64,000 bases of DNA, taken from positions 1-64,000 of the forward strand of contig JAHWKY010000011.1 in assembly GCA_019347575.1 (NCBI GenBank), read 5' to 3'. The first letter of the stretch is position 1. Every line of letters begins with the position of its first letter. The notes under the pieces were generated by a model, which was given only the letters and a program-made list of their open reading frames with translations, was not told the DNA's origin and ran no database searches. Shown one piece after another: positions 3,302 through 12,341 of this stretch. Position numbers and translations under genes: made by a program. This DNA is from Actinomycetota bacterium (GTDB lineage Bacteria > Actinomycetota > Nitriliruptoria > Nitriliruptorales > Nitriliruptoraceae).

Positions 3302-3505
3302 ACGACATCACGGCGCGGCACGAGACACGGTCGGCGCGGAACGACCTCTACTACACCGGTCCCGCTGCCGATGAAGGTCTTGAGAGCCTGCTGGCCGAAG
3401 GCGATGGTGTCGGCGCTGACTCCACACGCAGGTCGCCGCTTCGGCGCCGAGCCGGCGTGGCTCGCCCCGGCCAGAAGCGCTGGCGCCTGCCTCGGCCCGA
3501 TGTGA

Positions 3506-6214
3506 TCAGTTGGGCGGTCCGGGCTCGTGTTCGACGATGGTGTCCCACGTCAGCGCGTGGAGCATCAGGTGCTGGCCGGTGAGGGTCATCGCGTAGGGCT
3601 CGAGACCGAACCAGTGGTCGAACGCCTCGGTGGGGGTGGGCAGGATCGCGCCGAACGCCACGACCCGACCGGCACCCAGTGGGGCGGTGCCCAGCACGGT
3701 CCGGTCGGTGTCGTTGCCCTCGTGGGTCACCTTGGGGCCGCTGGGCGGGTCCACGGTCCCGATGGTCGTGCCCCCGGCCGCCTCCCACGCGGCCCGGTCG
3801 ACCGACCAGATGGGGGCGCTGTTCTCGGTGATGGTCTCGGGGCCGCGGCCGTCGAGACAGACGACGCAGGCGATCCAGTAGTTGTCGCGTTCGAGCAGCA
3901 GGGGGTAGCCGAGCGCGGTCGGCTCGTAGGTCTGGCGTGCCGGCTCGTGCAGGCCGTCGGTCCAGGGGTGGGTGCGGTCGAGGTCGGCGTAGCCGACGTA
4001 GCCGCGGTGCTCGGTCACCGCGTCCGCGGCGATCGGCAGCAGGTCGGGTGCGAGCTGCAGGGCGGCGTCGGTGAGCACGACGTTGCCTCCGGCCTGGGCG
4101 AAGGCTCGGAGCTGGTCGGGATCCGCTTCGGTGTGGTCGGCGACGACCACGGTGGCGAGGTCGGGCCACAACTGCCGTGCCGGCGCCAGCCGTACGACGG
4201 CATCGGTCACCGACCGGCGCAGGTCGCGGAACCAGTCGGTGTTGGCCACGTCGTAGCCGACCTGGTCGATCGAGGGGTGGAAGGGGGTCCCGGGGTAGCC
4301 GGCGGGGGGCGGGGTGGGGTTGCCGTCGGCGTCGGTGACGCGATCGCCGGTGGCGATGTAGCCGACCGGGCCGCCGAGGTCGTGCTCGCGCACGACGTCG
4401 CGGTCGAAGCGGGTCGCGGCGTGCACCAGCAGCACGTCGGTCATCGCGCGCACGTTGTCGACGAACAGCTGGAACAGCTCGCCCGGGTCCGTCCGGTGCG
4501 GGCGGGAGACCACGTCGCAGGGGATCTCGTGCAAGAAGGTATCGGCGCCCAGCCCGGCTTCGGCGCCGAAGAACCACGCCCACGCGTTCGGCGTGTTGTA
4601 GTCGATCTGCTCCCACGTCGTCCCGTAGCTGTTCCAGTGTGTCGTGAGGTAGACGAGCTTGCTGGTCTCGGCCTCGCCCCGGTGCTCGTCCCAGGCGCGC
4701 AGCGCGTGGCCTCGGGCCTGCTCGACCGCGTCGAGGAGCTGGCGGTGCACCGGGGTCACCACCTCGTGACCGTCGCGCCACAGCGTCTGGTAGGCACGCT
4801 GGGTGATGCGCTCCGCGACGTCGTGGAGCCGGTCGATCCGGGCAGCGTCGCTGCCCTGGTCCACGAAGAGCATCGCGCCGGTCGGGACGGGACCGTGGTA
4901 GTCCATCGCCGCGGCGAACGGACGCCCACCCAGCTCCGCCTCCCGCACCTGCCGCAGGTAGGTGGTGATCGCGCCGCCGGCGGGCTGGGTCAGCGTCGAG
5001 TAGCCCCAGTTGTTGATGACCCGGTCCTGCGGGATGACCCAGCCGGGCCCGTAGGCGATGCGGTTGGTGTTGGCACCGGCGCCGTTGCTCGTCGAGTCTC
5101 CCCAGCCGTCGGGTGAGAGCACCACGAACATCAGCTTGACCCGGCGCAGCAACTCACCCACCGGCATCTCCAGCGTCTCCCCGGTGGTGCCGGTGCCCGC
5201 CCGCACCAGCGTGTCGGGAGCCTCGCGGGCCGCGATCGCCAGGTCCTCGATGATCCTCGGGATGGCCTCCAGGCCGCACCACTCCTTGCCGTGCGCCACC
5301 GTCAGCAGCAGGTAGCCCTTGCCGGCATCCGGCACCGACCGGTCGGTGATCGTGGCGACGTGGAAGTCGTGACCGTCGCCGGTGTCGCCGGGGTGCCACG
5401 GCGCCAGCCCGTCGCCGCCGACGCTGACCGCGTTGGGGTCACCGAGCTCCTCACGCACCGTGGTGAGCGCCACCAGGTCCGGGTAGCGCTGGACCAGCAC
5501 CCGAGCCCCCAGCACGAAGTCGCCGCGGCGGATGGCTGCCCCTCCCGCGTCGCGCGGCTCGGGGAACACCCGGCCCTCGATGTCCGGGGTGGGCACGGGC
5601 AGCGACCCCTCCGGTCGTGGCGGTGCCGACGACACCGACCACAACACGACGTCGTCGAGCCACACGCCCACCCCGAGCCGCTCACAGAACAGCAGCGGCG
5701 GCTGGACCAACCCCCCGCTGCATAGGACGTCACTCGTGAGGCGGAAGCGCACCTGGAACGGACCCGCCGGAGGGGTGAAGGTGACGCGTTCGGCGTTCCA
5801 GTCCGGCCACGGGCCGGACTCGCCGCTCACCGACCGGAGCTCGTGCCACGTCAGCCCGTCCCCGGACCACGCGACCTCCAGGAAGTCGAAGCCCTCCTCG
5901 GTCCTCATCCGCTGCCACCAGTCCAGGGCCACGGCGTCCCCGTCGCCCTCTATGAGCGGTGACACCAACGCGGTGTCCGCGAAGTCCTCGTAGGCAGGGA
6001 TCTGGAACGAGATGTCGGATGCGGCTCCCGGGCCCCCGCGTTCCCACGTCGTGGTCGGCGCTCCTGGCGTGTCGACGGTCCACCCCTCGGCGTCGGCCTC
6101 GAACCCGAACGGCCCAGCGATCGGCTCCGGTGCAGCATCCTCTGCGGCGATCGTGCCGAGCCCGGTCAGCAGCGCCACGACCAGCACGGGCCAGCGGTAG
6201 CTGTGGATCCCCAT
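3506..6214 (-). CDS. Secreted M14-family zinc carboxypeptidase, multidomain
   Basis: 902 residues from ATG 6214; signal peptide YRWPVLVVALLTGLGTIAAE. Residues about 30-200 form a jelly-roll-like region (GFEADAEGWTVD, later WLDDVVLWSV) of the kind attached to secreted peptidases. The M14 core follows: HGKEW near residue 306 (H-x-x-E zinc ligands; Lys where Arg is usual), a VVLSPDGWGD / GANTNR substrate-binding segment near 380, DYHGP near 438 (third zinc ligand) and FLHEIP near 559 as candidate general base. About 300 C-terminal residues look like a class-I amidotransferase-type Rossmann fold without a recognised active site. Start 6214 fits the 35-base spacing to the upstream inverted repeat, seen again at 3249. 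Specificity is unknown. Confidence 0.8.
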   Translation of the reverse strand: MGIHSYRWPVLVVALLTGLGTIAAEDAAPEPIAGPFGFEADAEGWTVDTPGAPTTTWERGGPGAASDISFQIPAYEDFADTALVSPLIEGDGDAVALDWWQRMRTEEGFDFLEVAWSGDGLTWHELRSVSGESGPWPDWNAERVTFTPPAGPFQVRFRLTSDVLCSGGLVQPPLLFCERLGVGVWLDDVVLWSVSSAPPRPEGSLPVPTPDIEGRVFPEPRDAGGAAIRRGDFVLGARVLVQRYPDLVALTTVREELGDPNAVSVGGDGLAPWHPGDTGDGHDFHVATITDRSVPDAGKGYLLLTVAHGKEWCGLEAIPRIIEDLAIAAREAPDTLVRAGTGTTGETLEMPVGELLRRVKLMFVVLSPDGWGDSTSNGAGANTNRIAYGPGWVIPQDRVINNWGYSTLTQPAGGAITTYLRQVREAELGGRPFAAAMDYHGPVPTGAMLFVDQGSDAARIDRLHDVAERITQRAYQTLWRDGHEVVTPVHRQLLDAVEQARGHALRAWDEHRGEAETSKLVYLTTHWNSYGTTWEQIDYNTPNAWAWFFGAEAGLGADTFLHEIPCDVVSRPHRTDPGELFQLFVDNVRAMTDVLLVHAATRFDRDVVREHDLGGPVGYIATGDRVTDADGNPTPPPAGYPGTPFHPSIDQVGYDVANTDWFRDLRRSVTDAVVRLAPARQLWPDLATVVVADHTEADPDQLRAFAQAGGNVVLTDAALQLAPDLLPIAADAVTEHRGYVGYADLDRTHPWTDGLHEPARQTYEPTALGYPLLLERDNYWIACVVCLDGRGPETITENSAPIWSVDRAAWEAAGGTTIGTVDPPSGPKVTHEGNDTDRTVLGTAPLGAGRVVAFGAILPTPTEAFDHWFGLEPYAMTLTGQHLMLHALTWDTIVEHEPGPPN

Positions 6215-6249
6215 CGTCGGCCTGCCTTCGGTCGGGTCGACCGTGGGAC

Positions 6250-6266
6250 GTTCCACCACGGGGAAC
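6250..6266. promoter_or_regulatory. 17-bp inverted repeat upstream of the carboxypeptidase gene
   Basis: GTTCCACCACGGGGAAC, 35 bases before ATG 6214; same type as at 3285-3301 and 10628-10644. The flanks match the 3285 site as well: GGTCGACCC follows on the gene side and CGTTCCGCGC precedes it at the same distance. Confidence 0.5.
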
Positions 6267-6398
6267 GCGACGCCCGGGCCCGGAACGACAGGCGATCAGC
6301 GCGGAACGGTTCTCTACTCCCCGAGTAGCACGTTGGACTCACGCGGTGAGGGAGCGACTCCAGGTGCTGCTCGAGGAGCACGAGTTGGCTGACTGGTG

Positions 6399-8082: not shown

Positions 8083-8352
8083 TCACGCTGCTGTAGGCGA
8101 AGGCCGGGCGACGTCCGCTTCCGTCTCCGACGGTGGCACCAGGCCCAGCACCTGCGCCACGAACGCCTCGGTCAGCCGCGCGATCGTCCCCCGCAGCGCG
8201 GTGTAGTCCAGGGCCGCGCCCCCCGACGCCCCGCTCAGCGGCTCCCGGTCCGGCGTCGACAGGCCCACCTGCACCGCCCCGAACAGCACCAGCCACGCCG
8301 CGAACCCCTCCGCCGACGCGTGACCGATCGTCGAGGCGTCGCCGCGCGTCAC
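8083..8352 (-). pseudogene. Duplicated N-terminus of the propeller protein, truncated
   Basis: 89 codons from GTG 8352, which overlaps the TGA of the preceding gene as GTGA and has GGGAGG six bases upstream. The product AAWLVLFGAVQVGLSTPDRE ... LDYTALRGTIARLTEAF ... VLGLV is nearly identical to the first part of the propeller protein at 8349-10538 (AAWLVLFGAVQVGLSTPDRE ... LDYSALRGTIAQLTEAF ... VLGLV). It stops after PSPTAA and runs into the damaged 5' end of the histidine kinase gene. The simplest reading is a second copy of the propeller gene whose remainder was deleted, the deletion also removing the start of the kinase. It may still be translated as a one-helix membrane peptide. Confidence 0.55.
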
Positions 8353-10538
8353 GACACACCTCCCAGGGAGTGCACGAACAGGTCCCTGCCGCCGTTGGTG
8401 TCGTCGTCCACGAGGTTGTCGGCGGACGACAGGAAGACGACCTCGGCGCCGCTGGGGGACAGGCCCCCGAGTGAGCTGCAATTGTTGGCCTGCTCGCCGC
8501 GGGAGTTGACCGACACCAGTAGCGTGGTGCCGGCGTGGCGGTCGCGCAGGTACACGTCGTCGAAGCACCCGGTCGCGGTGGGCACGGCGGCGCGTGCTTC
8601 GTCGCGTGCCGACAGGTTGTCCGCCGGCGACTCGAAGGCGACGTAGCGCCCGTCGTCCGACACGAGCGCGTAGAACTCACCGACGCCGGCCCGCTCGGTC
8701 GCGTCCCTCTCGACCTGCTGCTGCTCGCCGTCGCTGTTCACCGACACGACCTCCAGCGACCCGGATGCCACGTCGTAGCCGAAGATGTCCGTGATCTCGT
8801 TGCGGTCCTCTGCGACCAGGTCCGAGGCCAGTGACGCGAACACCACCACGCGGCCGTCACCGGAGATGTCCGGTGCGAACACGTGGCCGTTCGAGGGCCC
8901 GCCCCCGTTGACACTGCTGGAGACGAAACGCATCTCGCCCGTGACGCGGTCGGCCAGGAACAGCTGGAAGGTCTCGCCGGGATCGATGCCCGGCACGAGG
9001 TTGGACGCCACCGACTTGAACACCACCAGCCGCCCATCCGCGGACACCGCCGGACCGGAACTGGCGCCGTTCCCGGGCTCGCCCGCCGCGTCGACCGACA
9101 CCCGGGTCGTCTCGCGCACGCAGCGATCGTGGGCGTAGACCTGGTAGGGCGGGTTGAAGCGGGCGTCGACCACCGCGGCCTCCTGGTCCTCACCCTCGAT
9201 CAGACCGAGCATGGCGGACTCGAAGACCACGACACAGCCGTCCGCGGTGATCGACAGCTGCGCGACCCACTCGATGCAGGGTTGGTGCTGGTGCCCTCCG
9301 ACCGGCGCGTCCCGTGGGCGGTGCTGGCAGTCGGCCCGGAACGGCGTGAGCAGGGCGTGAACGGTAGCGAAGCGCCGTCCCTGACGGCCCGACGACGACA
9401 CCGACACCCGGGTGGTCTCACGGGTGAGCCGGTCGTGGACGAAGGCGTCGTGCTCCTTATTGGTGTCGTCGGGCACGAGGTTGTCCGCCCACGAGTAGAA
9501 CGCCACGAAGCGACCGTCCGCCGAGATGTCGACCGGGCTGCCCCCGCTGTGGTCGTTGCCCTCGGTGCCGTCCGAGGCTTCCGAGACCCGTTCGACCGCA
9601 CCCGTCAGCCGGTCCTTGACGAACACGTCCCAGGCGGCGTTCGTGTCGCCGGGCACGAGCTGGGACGACAGCGACTGGAACGCCACGAACCGACCGTCCG
9701 CGGACGTCGCGCCCATCCAGTACCGCGCCGCGCCGATCTCCTCCCCCTCGGAGTTCAGCGAGACCCGCTCGGTGACGCCGGCTGCGTCCAGCGTGAACAC
9801 CGTGGAGCCACCGCCCGCGGGCCGGCCGACCTGGAAGTAGTAGTCCGAGCCCGCTACCGACTCGAACGCGACGTGCGCGTCGCCGACCAGGTCGGTGTCG
9901 CAGCCGACGCGGTGCAAGTCGTCCAGGCCGCTGCCGGTGAAGACACCCAGGCTGGTCGCGCTCGAGGTCCCCTCCGTCGAAGCGACCAGTCCGGTCGTCC
10001 TTTCCGGGCTGTAGCGGTACCACAGCGTCGGACCGGCCGGGGCGCACGACGACGGCTCGCCCGGCTGCCGCGAGGCACTGCGCGCGTCGGTCCGCGCGGT
10101 GAACGGCACCGACGGCACCTCGTACGCCTCCGCGAACGTGTCGTTGTCGGGGGGATGGGTGACCTCGATCCGTCCGGCCGGTGGAGCATCCAGCGGGGTC
10201 TGCTCAGCGCTGATCGGAGCCGCAGGGCTCGCGATGTCACGGGCCGGATCAGCCGTGTCATCCGTCGTCGGGGCCGGGACCAGTCCCAGCACCTCGGCGA
10301 TGAACGCCTCGGTGAGCTGCGCGATCGTCCCCCGCAACGCGGAGTAGTCCAGGGCGACGGCCCCCGACTCCCCGCTCAGCAGCTCCCGATCCGGCGTCGA
10401 CAACCCCACCTGCACCGCCCCGAACAGCACCAGCCACGCCGCCAGGCCGGCACCGACCAGCCGCGGCGTGGCGAGAGACCGGGCGCGGGGCGCATCCCCG
10501 ACCCCCAGTCCCCGGTCGATCCGCTGCGACGCTGCCAT
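8349..10538 (-). CDS. Exported or membrane-anchored PD40/TolB-type beta-propeller protein
   Basis: 729 residues from ATG 10538. One hydrophobic N-terminal segment (GAGLAAWLVLFGAVQVGL, about residues 30-47), a helical region, then a PPC-like domain (PDNDTFAEAYEVPSVPF ... CAPAGPTLWYRYSP) matching the secreted hydrolase neighbours. The rest is a series of propeller blades with repeats such as ISADGRFVAFYSWADNLVP and VSADGRLVVFKSVASNLVP, each followed by D-x-F-V/L-H/A-D-R-x-T and RVSV. These are the hallmarks of PD40/TolB-like blades in actinobacterial surface proteins. No enzymatic motif is seen. A longer open frame reaches 10883, but that part overlaps the remnant at 10690-10885 and the leader repeat, so ATG 10538 is preferred. 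Confidence 0.75.
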   Translation of the reverse strand: MAASQRIDRGLGVGDAPRARSLATPRLVGAGLAAWLVLFGAVQVGLSTPDRELLSGESGAVALDYSALRGTIAQLTEAFIAEVLGLVPAPTTDDTADPARDIASPAAPISAEQTPLDAPPAGRIEVTHPPDNDTFAEAYEVPSVPFTARTDARSASRQPGEPSSCAPAGPTLWYRYSPERTTGLVASTEGTSSATSLGVFTGSGLDDLHRVGCDTDLVGDAHVAFESVAGSDYYFQVGRPAGGGSTVFTLDAAGVTERVSLNSEGEEIGAARYWMGATSADGRFVAFQSLSSQLVPGDTNAAWDVFVKDRLTGAVERVSEASDGTEGNDHSGGSPVDISADGRFVAFYSWADNLVPDDTNKEHDAFVHDRLTRETTRVSVSSSGRQGRRFATVHALLTPFRADCQHRPRDAPVGGHQHQPCIEWVAQLSITADGCVVVFESAMLGLIEGEDQEAAVVDARFNPPYQVYAHDRCVRETTRVSVDAAGEPGNGASSGPAVSADGRLVVFKSVASNLVPGIDPGETFQLFLADRVTGEMRFVSSSVNGGGPSNGHVFAPDISGDGRVVVFASLASDLVAEDRNEITDIFGYDVASGSLEVVSVNSDGEQQQVERDATERAGVGEFYALVSDDGRYVAFESPADNLSARDEARAAVPTATGCFDDVYLRDRHAGTTLLVSVNSRGEQANNCSSLGGLSPSGAEVVFLSSADNLVDDDTNGGRDLFVHSLGGVS

Positions 10539-10689: not shown

Positions 10690-10885
10690 TCACGGCAGGA
10701 CCGCGAAGTCGTGGAAGAACAGGTCGCCGCCCCAGTCGCCGTTGGTGACGTCCTCGACGAGGTTGTCGGCGGCGTTGACGTAGGCGACCGTGCCGCCGTC
10801 GCCGGAGATGAACGGTGCGGCCGAGCAGCGGCTGCCCGGCTGCCCCTGCTGGCAACCGACACCGACAGGGTCGTACCCGCCACCG
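10690..10885 (-). pseudogene. Remnant of a second propeller gene (C-terminal end, frameshifted)
   Basis: Translating toward the stop at 10690 gives AAPFISGDGGTVAYVNAADNLVEDVTN then GGDLFFHDFAVLP, which matches the last blade of the propeller protein (LGGLSPSGAEVVFLSSADNL, DDDTNGGRDLFVHSLGGVS). The preceding conserved bit AGTTLSVSV lies in another frame, so there is a frameshift near 10850. Nothing recognisable of the rest of the gene remains upstream, where the winged-helix gene sits. Together with 8083-8352 it marks an old tandem array of at least three propeller genes. Confidence 0.6.
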
Positions 10886-10940
10886 TGTCCGGGACGAGGG
10901 GAGCGCGAGCGAACGAACGAGAGGACTTGGGATGACCTCG

Positions 10941-11267
10941 TCAGCGTCGACCGCGGGTAGCGACGCTCGCGCCTCGTCCCGCTTGCTGCATCTCGTCGCG
11001 GGCCGCGTTCGCCGCACGGAAGATCTGCCACAGGGGATGGTCGACAACGACGTAGTACTTCCGGCGCGAGCCTTCGACCTCGACCGTCGTGATGAGGCCG
11101 AGGTCCTCGAGCTTGTCGAGCTCTTGCACGACGGCGGTCCGGTCCGCCTGGACCGAAGCGACGGCCTCATGCTGGGAGAAGGCCGCGTCCTGTTCGACGA
11201 CCCAGAGCCCGACGCGGGCGCGCGCCGCCCTCCCGAAGAGGGTCTTCATCCAGCCTTCGTCGGGCAT
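10941..11267 (-). CDS. Small winged-helix transcriptional regulator
   Basis: 108 residues from ATG 11267 (GAGG four bases upstream). The sequence FSQHEAVASVQADRTAVVQELDKLEDLGLITTVEVEGSRRKYYVVVDHPLW reads as recognition helix, wing helix (L-x-x-L-x-x-L-G-L-I) and beta-hairpin of an ArsR/MarR/PadR-like winged helix. No metal-binding Cys/His set is visible, so the signal is not deduced. It is divergently transcribed from the DUF5678/retropepsin pair across a conspicuously AT-rich 78-bp gap, and is a likely regulator of itself and that pair. Confidence 0.65.
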   Translation of the reverse strand: MPDEGWMKTLFGRAARARVGLWVVEQDAAFSQHEAVASVQADRTAVVQELDKLEDLGLITTVEVEGSRRKYYVVVDHPLWQIFRAANAARDEMQQAGRGASVATRGRR

Positions 11268-11345
11268 GTCGCCTCAGGAAGTATCATGTTTCTTGTTAGT
11301 TGTTACTTGGCTTCGGATACTACGTCGCGAGCGCGGGGGACGTCC
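11268..11345. promoter_or_regulatory. AT-rich divergent promoter region with short inverted repeat
   Basis: The stretch about 11278-11322 is much lower in GC than everything around it. It contains AGTATC (11280-11285) and its complement GATACT (11316-11321). It separates the winged-helix gene (minus) from the DUF5678-like gene (plus). Promoter and operator function are inferred from position and base composition. Confidence 0.4.
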
Positions 11346-11610
11346 ATGCTCGGTAGCTTGTGGAAGGGCCTGCTCGCGCGACTGAGGAACCCGAACGTGT
11401 CCCGTGATCCTGTGGTGAGCCCGGCGTCGCTGCGCGGCTTCGAGGGCCGCTGGGTCGCGGTTGAAGGACGGCGAGGTGGTGGCCGCCGCAGAGACGATGG
11501 ATCAGCTGATCGTGGCGCTCCGCGACAGCCAGCGTGGACCCCAGGTGAGGAACGCGACGATCCTACGCGTGCCCGGTGAGCACGAGGCGGAACTCGTCGG
11601 TCTCGGCTGA
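11346..11610 (+). pseudogene. DUF5678-like small protein, frameshifted
   Basis: ATG 11346 opens MLGSLWKGLLARLRNPN ... GFEGRWVAV. The conserved continuation LKDGEVVAAAETMDQLIVAL ... VRNATILRVPGE is found in another frame, ending at TGA 11608-11610. Joined, the product has the DUF5678 pattern: W-V-A, then D-G-E-V-V-A, an alpha helix and a final V-P strand. The break is near 11455-11465, and one extra base would explain it. The following gene is the retropepsin-like ORF five bases on. Such DUF5678 proteins act in unknown processes; the neighbour suggests a functional pair. Confidence 0.55.
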
Positions 11611-11614
11611 CCGT

Positions 11615-12248
11615 GTGACGGCACAGCCCTGGGTCTTCCCCTACGTGACGGAGCCCGGGAGCGAGTCGGACTCCGATCCGCCGCTCCGTCCTGCCGTCGC
11701 GGTCGAGTCTCCTTGCGCCCGACGGGGACGAGAGTCCCAAGCTCCTCGCCCTCGTCGACTCGGGCAGCGAGCGCACCGTCGCCGGACCGGGTCTCGGTCG
11801 CCTCGCCCGGCCGGTGTTCGCAGAGCCGCCGCGTGAGATCACCCTCCAGATTGGTGGGGACACGAGGGTCGCTCGCTTCGGGGAGGTTCGACTTCGCCTG
11901 TACGAGCACGTGTACTCCGTTGACGAGCCTCCCCTGACGGAGTGGTCCGCCGAGGTCGGCTTCTTCACGCAGTGGGAGCCGCCGTGGGGCGTCGTGCTGG
12001 GACAGCAAGGGTTCTTCGATCGGTTCACGGTGACGATGAGCCGGCTCGCGTTGGCGCTCGCCCTCGAGGATCGCGACGTCTTCGACGCCCGCTTCGAAGA
12101 TGCCGCCACAGGACAGGGGTCGCGGGTGGCGACCGCCCCGTCGGTTCCGGCCGTGACGTCGCACGCTCGGCGTGTGCCCAAGCTGTGCCCAAGTAGACCG
12201 ATTATGGGGCCGAGAATGGAGCGGCGGGTCCCGTGGAACCCGCCCTGA
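11615..12248 (+). pseudogene. Retropepsin-like aspartic protease gene, frameshifted
   Basis: GTG 11615 opens VTAQPWVFPYVTEPGSE ... PAVAVES; the frame then changes near 11700-11716 and continues LLAPDGDESPKLLALVDSG, with the active-site triad Asp-Ser-Gly typical of retropepsin-like proteases, then GLARP-like segments, ITLQIGGDTRVARFGEVRL and GVVLGQQGFFDRFTV, where an I/V-L-G turn near the C-terminus is also a family trait. A single monomeric domain of about 200 residues would dimerise like retroviral proteases. The last 30 codons overlap a hairpin (12223-12244) next to the tRNA, so the native C-terminus may differ. As sequenced the gene cannot make the full domain. Confidence 0.55.
12223..12244 (-). 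terminator. Hairpin just behind tRNA-Ile
   Basis: GGCGGGT and ACCCGCC pair around an 8-base loop, starting 23 bases after the tRNA 3' end in tRNA orientation. No T-run follows; terminator role is inferred from position. It overlaps the last codons of the retropepsin-like ORF. Confidence 0.35.
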
Positions 12249-12266
12249 CCTGCGGTTTCGTGTCGG

Positions 12267-12341
<75 letters not shown>

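Follow-up and report, generated by a model that had tools for sequence, protein, structure and literature searches.

Bacterial retropepsin-like proteases have so far been represented mainly by RimB, RloA and the APRc protein of Rickettsia. Within clan AA, DDI1 carries UBA/UBL domains and APRc has membrane segments. The nearest characterised bacterial systems are RimB and RloA of Pseudomonas, whose functional partners are encoded in the same operons as the proteases themselves (PMC11957791, PMC12239564). DUF5678 (Pfam PF18929) is an uncharacterised family; in the full text of 5.39 million open papers, a corpus to which subscription papers and preprints do not belong, it appears in one unrelated paper only, and no description of its pairing with a protease was found there.

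Here we report the analysis of a 64,000-nucleotide stretch of DNA from a Nitriliruptoraceae genome (contig JAHWKY010000011.1; hereafter the window), in which a DUF5678 gene precedes a gene for a retropepsin-like protease, and of the occurrence of the same pair across the phylum. Intact pairs were detected in many families, which gives them the look of a two-part protease system, so far undescribed, that moves between genomes.

Results

Layout of the locus

The two genes lie between a divergent winged-helix (wHTH) gene and a tRNA-Ile(GAT) gene, beyond which gyrA and then gyrB follow (Table 1). Much of this layout had been proposed in a sequence-only reading of the window and was borne out: the wHTH ORF, which is intact, runs divergently from the two-gene unit, an AT-rich gap separates them, each member of the pair carries one frame break, and the second member is an aspartic protease with a D-S-G active site.

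Table 1. Features of the DUF5678-protease locus and its surroundings (positions in the window)
Feature	Position	Strand	Evidence or detail
Relic of a beta-propeller (TolB/PD40-like) C-terminus, apparently frame-broken	10711..10896	-	tblastn E 1.9e-7 and ORFs
wHTH protein, 108 aa, divergent from the pair	10941..11267	-	ORF and profile matches
AT-rich divergent gap, 78 bp	11268..11345	.	46% AT, equalled or exceeded in 0.1% of 78-bp stretches
DUF5678 gene, read-through product ~88 aa; frame changes in ~11454-11464	11346..11610	+	
Gene for a retropepsin-like aspartic protease; frame changes in ~11700-11715	11615..12248	+	
D-S-G catalytic motif	11757..11765	+	alignment: D15 and G17 of the fragment from 11715 invariant
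V-V-L-G, the hydrophobic-hydrophobic-Gly motif of retropepsins	11991..12002	+	alignment
tRNA-Ile(GAT), 3' end toward the pair; probable integration hotspot	12265..12341	-	

When the first gene was read through its change of frame, located after '...GRWVAV', the resulting protein scored above the curated cut-off of PF18929 (25.0 bits against 23.2; E 1.6e-5), although the match covers no more than 26 residues in a profile of 49 positions. Neither of the separate frames matched PF18929 alone.

The frame of the protease gene switches once, between '...LRPAVAVES' and '...KLLALVDSGSE', and the final ~50 codons of its ORF are unlike those of every relative. DSG and VVLG are conserved in the protease alignment and correspond to the D-[ST]-G and hydrophobic-hydrophobic-Gly motifs of retropepsin-like (A2-type) proteases. 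A relation to solved retropepsins was found in both sequence and predicted fold: the protease profile matched FIV protease (2.5e-6), DDI1 (1.4e-5) and Rickettsia APRc (0.016), and the modelled fold ranked the Rous sarcoma virus (RSV) protease and APRc first, with Foldseek probabilities of 0.99 and 0.98 but E > 0.001. A weak match to Asp_protease_2 was obtained for 13 of 14 linked proteases, and none of the 14 matched a Pfam family beyond Asp_protease_2, gag-asp_proteas, Asp_protease, RVP and SEN1_barrel; PF05618, which we take to be the RimB family, was matched by none of them at E up to 0.1. The proteases of the pair are free-standing proteins of about 130-180 aa without an evident signal peptide. 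Two candidate defence models of PADLOC, PDC-M08B and PDC-M52B, each drew weak to modest matches from six of the 14; the A components of PDC-M08 and PDC-M52 were not identified.

Recurrence of the pair in the phylum

PF18929 was searched in a sample of 296 genomes of the phylum, and a protease profile was then run against the same set. As the DUF5678 matches come from an independent Pfam profile, the DUF5678 side of the resulting count is unbiased by the protease alignment, whereas the protease side is biased, the profile having been built from linked proteases. PF18929 gave 28 matches, in 18 of the genomes. Directly downstream of 20 of them (15 genomes, 11 families), on the same strand and mostly at a distance of 21-157 bp, lay a protease match, and none of the 28 had a protease match upstream of or opposite to DUF5678. 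One further downstream protease was recognised by its motif (L033). Chance would be expected to yield about 0.03 such linkages, on a rough estimate that takes a genome of a few thousand genes to contain 1-4 of these proteases; the association is not accidental. The occurrence of DUF5678 beside retropepsin-like genes in other actinobacteria, which the sequence-only reading had named as the check on its proposal, is thus recurrent and strongly supported.

The DUF5678 gene comes first in the window, in L056, L057, L058, L010, L016 and in others. It encodes a protein of 60-90 residues and is usually overlapped or abutted by the protease gene; in L056 its TAG stop codon is immediately followed by an ATG. 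The partnership is not obligatory, since DUF5678 also occurs as a stand-alone protein or joined to further domains (L012, L013, L019, L029, L034) and related proteases occur without a recognisable DUF5678 neighbour (L086, L087, L089, L090). At G115:C24:6108-6449, two DUF5678 matches stand in tandem, with a single protease downstream.

The DUF5678 protein

DUF5678 proteins display the pattern GKWVA...T.(E/D)....P. The Pro is invariant in 16 sequences, in which the protein ends ~5-13 residues later with a short, mostly hydrophobic C-terminal tail. The predicted fold is a compact alpha-beta-beta-alpha-beta domain with a core pLDDT of about 90. Among fold relatives of this model, Foldseek returned none below E 1 and VIA-align none above Z 2.9, a result which does not show that the modelled fold is new. 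No PADLOC model was matched. Two candidate relationships were dropped: a link to ubiquitin or BLIP-II from the profile search, in which hardly any individual stretch passed and the matches arose from summed repeats, and a ubiquitin-like tag, an idea taken from the G-L-G tail of the actinobacterial subfamily and abandoned because DUF5678 proteins outside it end in quite different residues.

Read by eye, DUF5678 forms the C-terminal part of a sigma-factor-like protein in L034 (1474-2052, minus strand) and of a HEAT-repeat-like protein in L029 (1474-2346, minus strand). In L012 (1465-2122) a lone DUF5678 gene, without a protease, is divergent from an XRE-like helix-turn-helix gene.

The divergent winged-helix gene

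The wHTH gene had been taken for a dedicated repressor of the pair, a claim that comparison with other genomes did not support. No homologue of the wHTH protein was found in 60 related genomes, nor beside other pairs. Of four named relatives, only L055 has a divergent wHTH gene at the matching position, and BLASTP detected no similarity between its product and that of the window; L056, L057 and L058 have different neighbours there. A conserved third gene was rejected after inspection of 82 neighbour ORFs of 18 pairs, among which no family dominated.

The wHTH protein scored 18.8 bits against MarR and 16.3 bits against PadR, below the curated cut-off of 27, and its best PADLOC match was to PDC-M05A (6e-7). 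As PDC-M05 is a candidate system that combines a nucleotidyltransferase with a HEPN protein (PMC12988326), this match suggests that the wHTH protein is a generic winged helix. The AT content of the gap compares with 29% for the window, and neither a sigma-70-like promoter nor an inverted repeat was found in its 78 bp. The wHTH gene is probably a neighbour without relation to the pair, or one that other genes can replace.

Possible integration at tRNA-Ile and probable horizontal origin

The protease of the pair was absent from 34 genomes of the same family. The closest proteases are those of L055 (57%; another class), L056 (53%; Acidimicrobiaceae) and G080 (51%), that of L057, from the same class, reaching 43%. 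Absence from these 34 genomes, together with closer relatives in other classes, makes horizontal transfer the simplest reading.

The pair sits at the 3' end of tRNA-Ile, which is probably an integration hotspot. In L056, the order is tyrosine integrase, DUF5678, protease, tRNA-Ile, gyrA and gyrB, and the insertion site is that of the window. Another contig of the source genome contains a 51-bp copy of the tRNA-Ile 3' half (92%), plus 6 bp beyond it (G000:C36:37805-37855; L062 13806-13856), and this copy is a candidate for what is left of the att site of an element at tRNA-Ile. G014, of the same family, has both an ectopic 43-bp copy of the 3' half (G014:C115:7718-7760) and a tyrosine integrase 243 bp from tRNA-Ile (G014:C209:4228-5173). 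The ORFs 3' of tRNA-Ile vary among family members, and in G046, of the same class, tRNA-Ala follows tRNA-Ile.

The idea of a mobile module stands in part: the integration site at tRNA-Ile, the presence of an integrase next to the L056 pair and the patchy distribution speak for it, but no integrase was found in the 64-kb window, and no complete element with delimited ends. Carriage by plasmids or phages was considered and set aside, one protease and one DUF5678 sequence having no plasmid or phage match and the protease alignment no match in viral contigs.

Near the half-copy on C36 lie, as read by eye, a RelE-like toxin-antitoxin pair and what remains of a transposase. The integrase of L056 (1596-2937, plus strand), next to an intact pair, is itself divided over two frames. 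The L055 pair (3492-6297) is bordered by DUF5677, DUF2971 and a transposase, which suggests an island of variable content.

Frame breaks in the window copy

Both genes are in continuous frames in the relatives, so the breaks are changes in the window copy and not a family feature. In each case the frame shifts by a single base. Among the neighbours, gyrA, gyrB and others are whole over their full Pfam domains, the completeness of the assembly is 98.8%, and the propeller fragment, which shares 40% identity with the C-terminal end of the ORF at 8352-10538, adjoins the wHTH gene. On account of this nearby, apparently frame-broken fragment and the intact conserved genes, we read the window copy as a decaying insertion and favour mutational decay over assembly error. 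The DUF5678 and protease genes are probably both inactive in this Nitriliruptoraceae genome. The alternative that both breaks are assembly or sequencing errors, and that the pair is functional in the source organism, deserves some weight without being likely: each frame shift amounts to one base, and the catalytic motifs, the flap region and the third-position GC are still coding-like, but the conserved neighbouring genes show no breaks, a third broken fragment adjoins the wHTH gene, and the protease C-terminus is unlike that of all relatives.

Discussion

We give about even chances to the reading that the window pair represents a recurrent two-gene cassette, gained here by horizontal transfer and now in decay, in which DUF5678 is the partner or controller of the protease. 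The fixed gene order, the overlap or abutment of the genes and their one-to-one linkage argue that DUF5678 and the protease act together. Coupled translation would supply the two proteins in matched amounts, and DUF5678 may bind the dimeric protease and thereby control it. Its invariant Pro, and a C-terminal tail that is short and mostly hydrophobic, suggest that this tail could fill the substrate cleft as a pseudo-substrate, or present a substrate there. When the L056 pair was modelled as one chain, read through the stop codon, pLDDT was 57 and no reliable interface was obtained. For DUF5678 itself, the role we infer as most likely is that of a dedicated binding partner and controller of the protease.

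The pair might instead be a toxin-antitoxin or abortive-infection module, in which proteolysis or loss of DUF5678, as a labile antitoxin, would free the protease, as the toxin, to cut essential host proteins. A small gene upstream of a coupled, overlapping or abutting enzyme gene is the arrangement of type II systems, and the location at an integration site, the patchy distribution and the diversity of the neighbours (among them nucleotidyltransferases, MazF, transposases, DUF2971 and DUF5677) fit such a module, as do the weak matches of several proteases to PDC-M08B and PDC-M52B. These candidate-defence matches are modest, however, and may reflect the shared protease fold only; moreover, DUF5678 has no PADLOC match, and searches of plasmids, phages and viral contigs did not turn up this protease. 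We consider this explanation unlikely. It is just as doubtful that DUF5678 is a substrate whose maturation or destruction (for example at the conserved tail) serves as a switch in regulation, the protease having a housekeeping role like that of RimB or RloA: one-to-one linkage, the conserved Pro and tail position, and the cooperation of RimB and RloA with proteins of their own operons (PMC11957791, PMC12239564) would agree with it, but the 14 proteases match no Pfam family outside the five retrieved here, and DUF5678 does not resemble the partners in the rim and rlo systems.

The recurrent, order-conserved pairing gives this uncharacterised family its first testable functional assignment, and it hints at a further class of HIV-protease-like enzymes in prokaryotes whose partner is built in. 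Should DUF5678 prove to be an inhibitor in nature, it would also be useful for comparison in work on the inhibition of aspartic proteases. A more far-reaching proposal, to which we attach a low probability, is that DUF5678, as a proteinaceous inhibitor or a small tag-like partner, and the prokaryotic HIV-protease-like enzymes linked to it make up a proteolytic switch inside the cell, widespread but so far undescribed, that travels between genomes as a defence or addiction cassette.

In comparison with known systems, the protease of the pair is like the clan AA retropepsin-like proteases (FIV protease, DDI1, APRc) in profile match, motifs and modelled fold, and differs from these three in being free-standing, without a polyprotein, UBA/UBL domains or membrane segments. 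Several proteases of the pair resemble the B components of PDC-M08 and PDC-M52, so that related proteases have already been flagged near defence genes, whereas DUF5678, which matches no PADLOC model, has not; the partner here therefore either differs from those in PDC-M08 and PDC-M52 or is not modelled in PADLOC. RloA proteins have signal peptides, whereas the protease of the pair has no evident one. Finally, where the Pseudomonas RimB and RloA proteases are accompanied by RimK and related proteins and by an inactive transglutaminase, the partner in the present pair is DUF5678.
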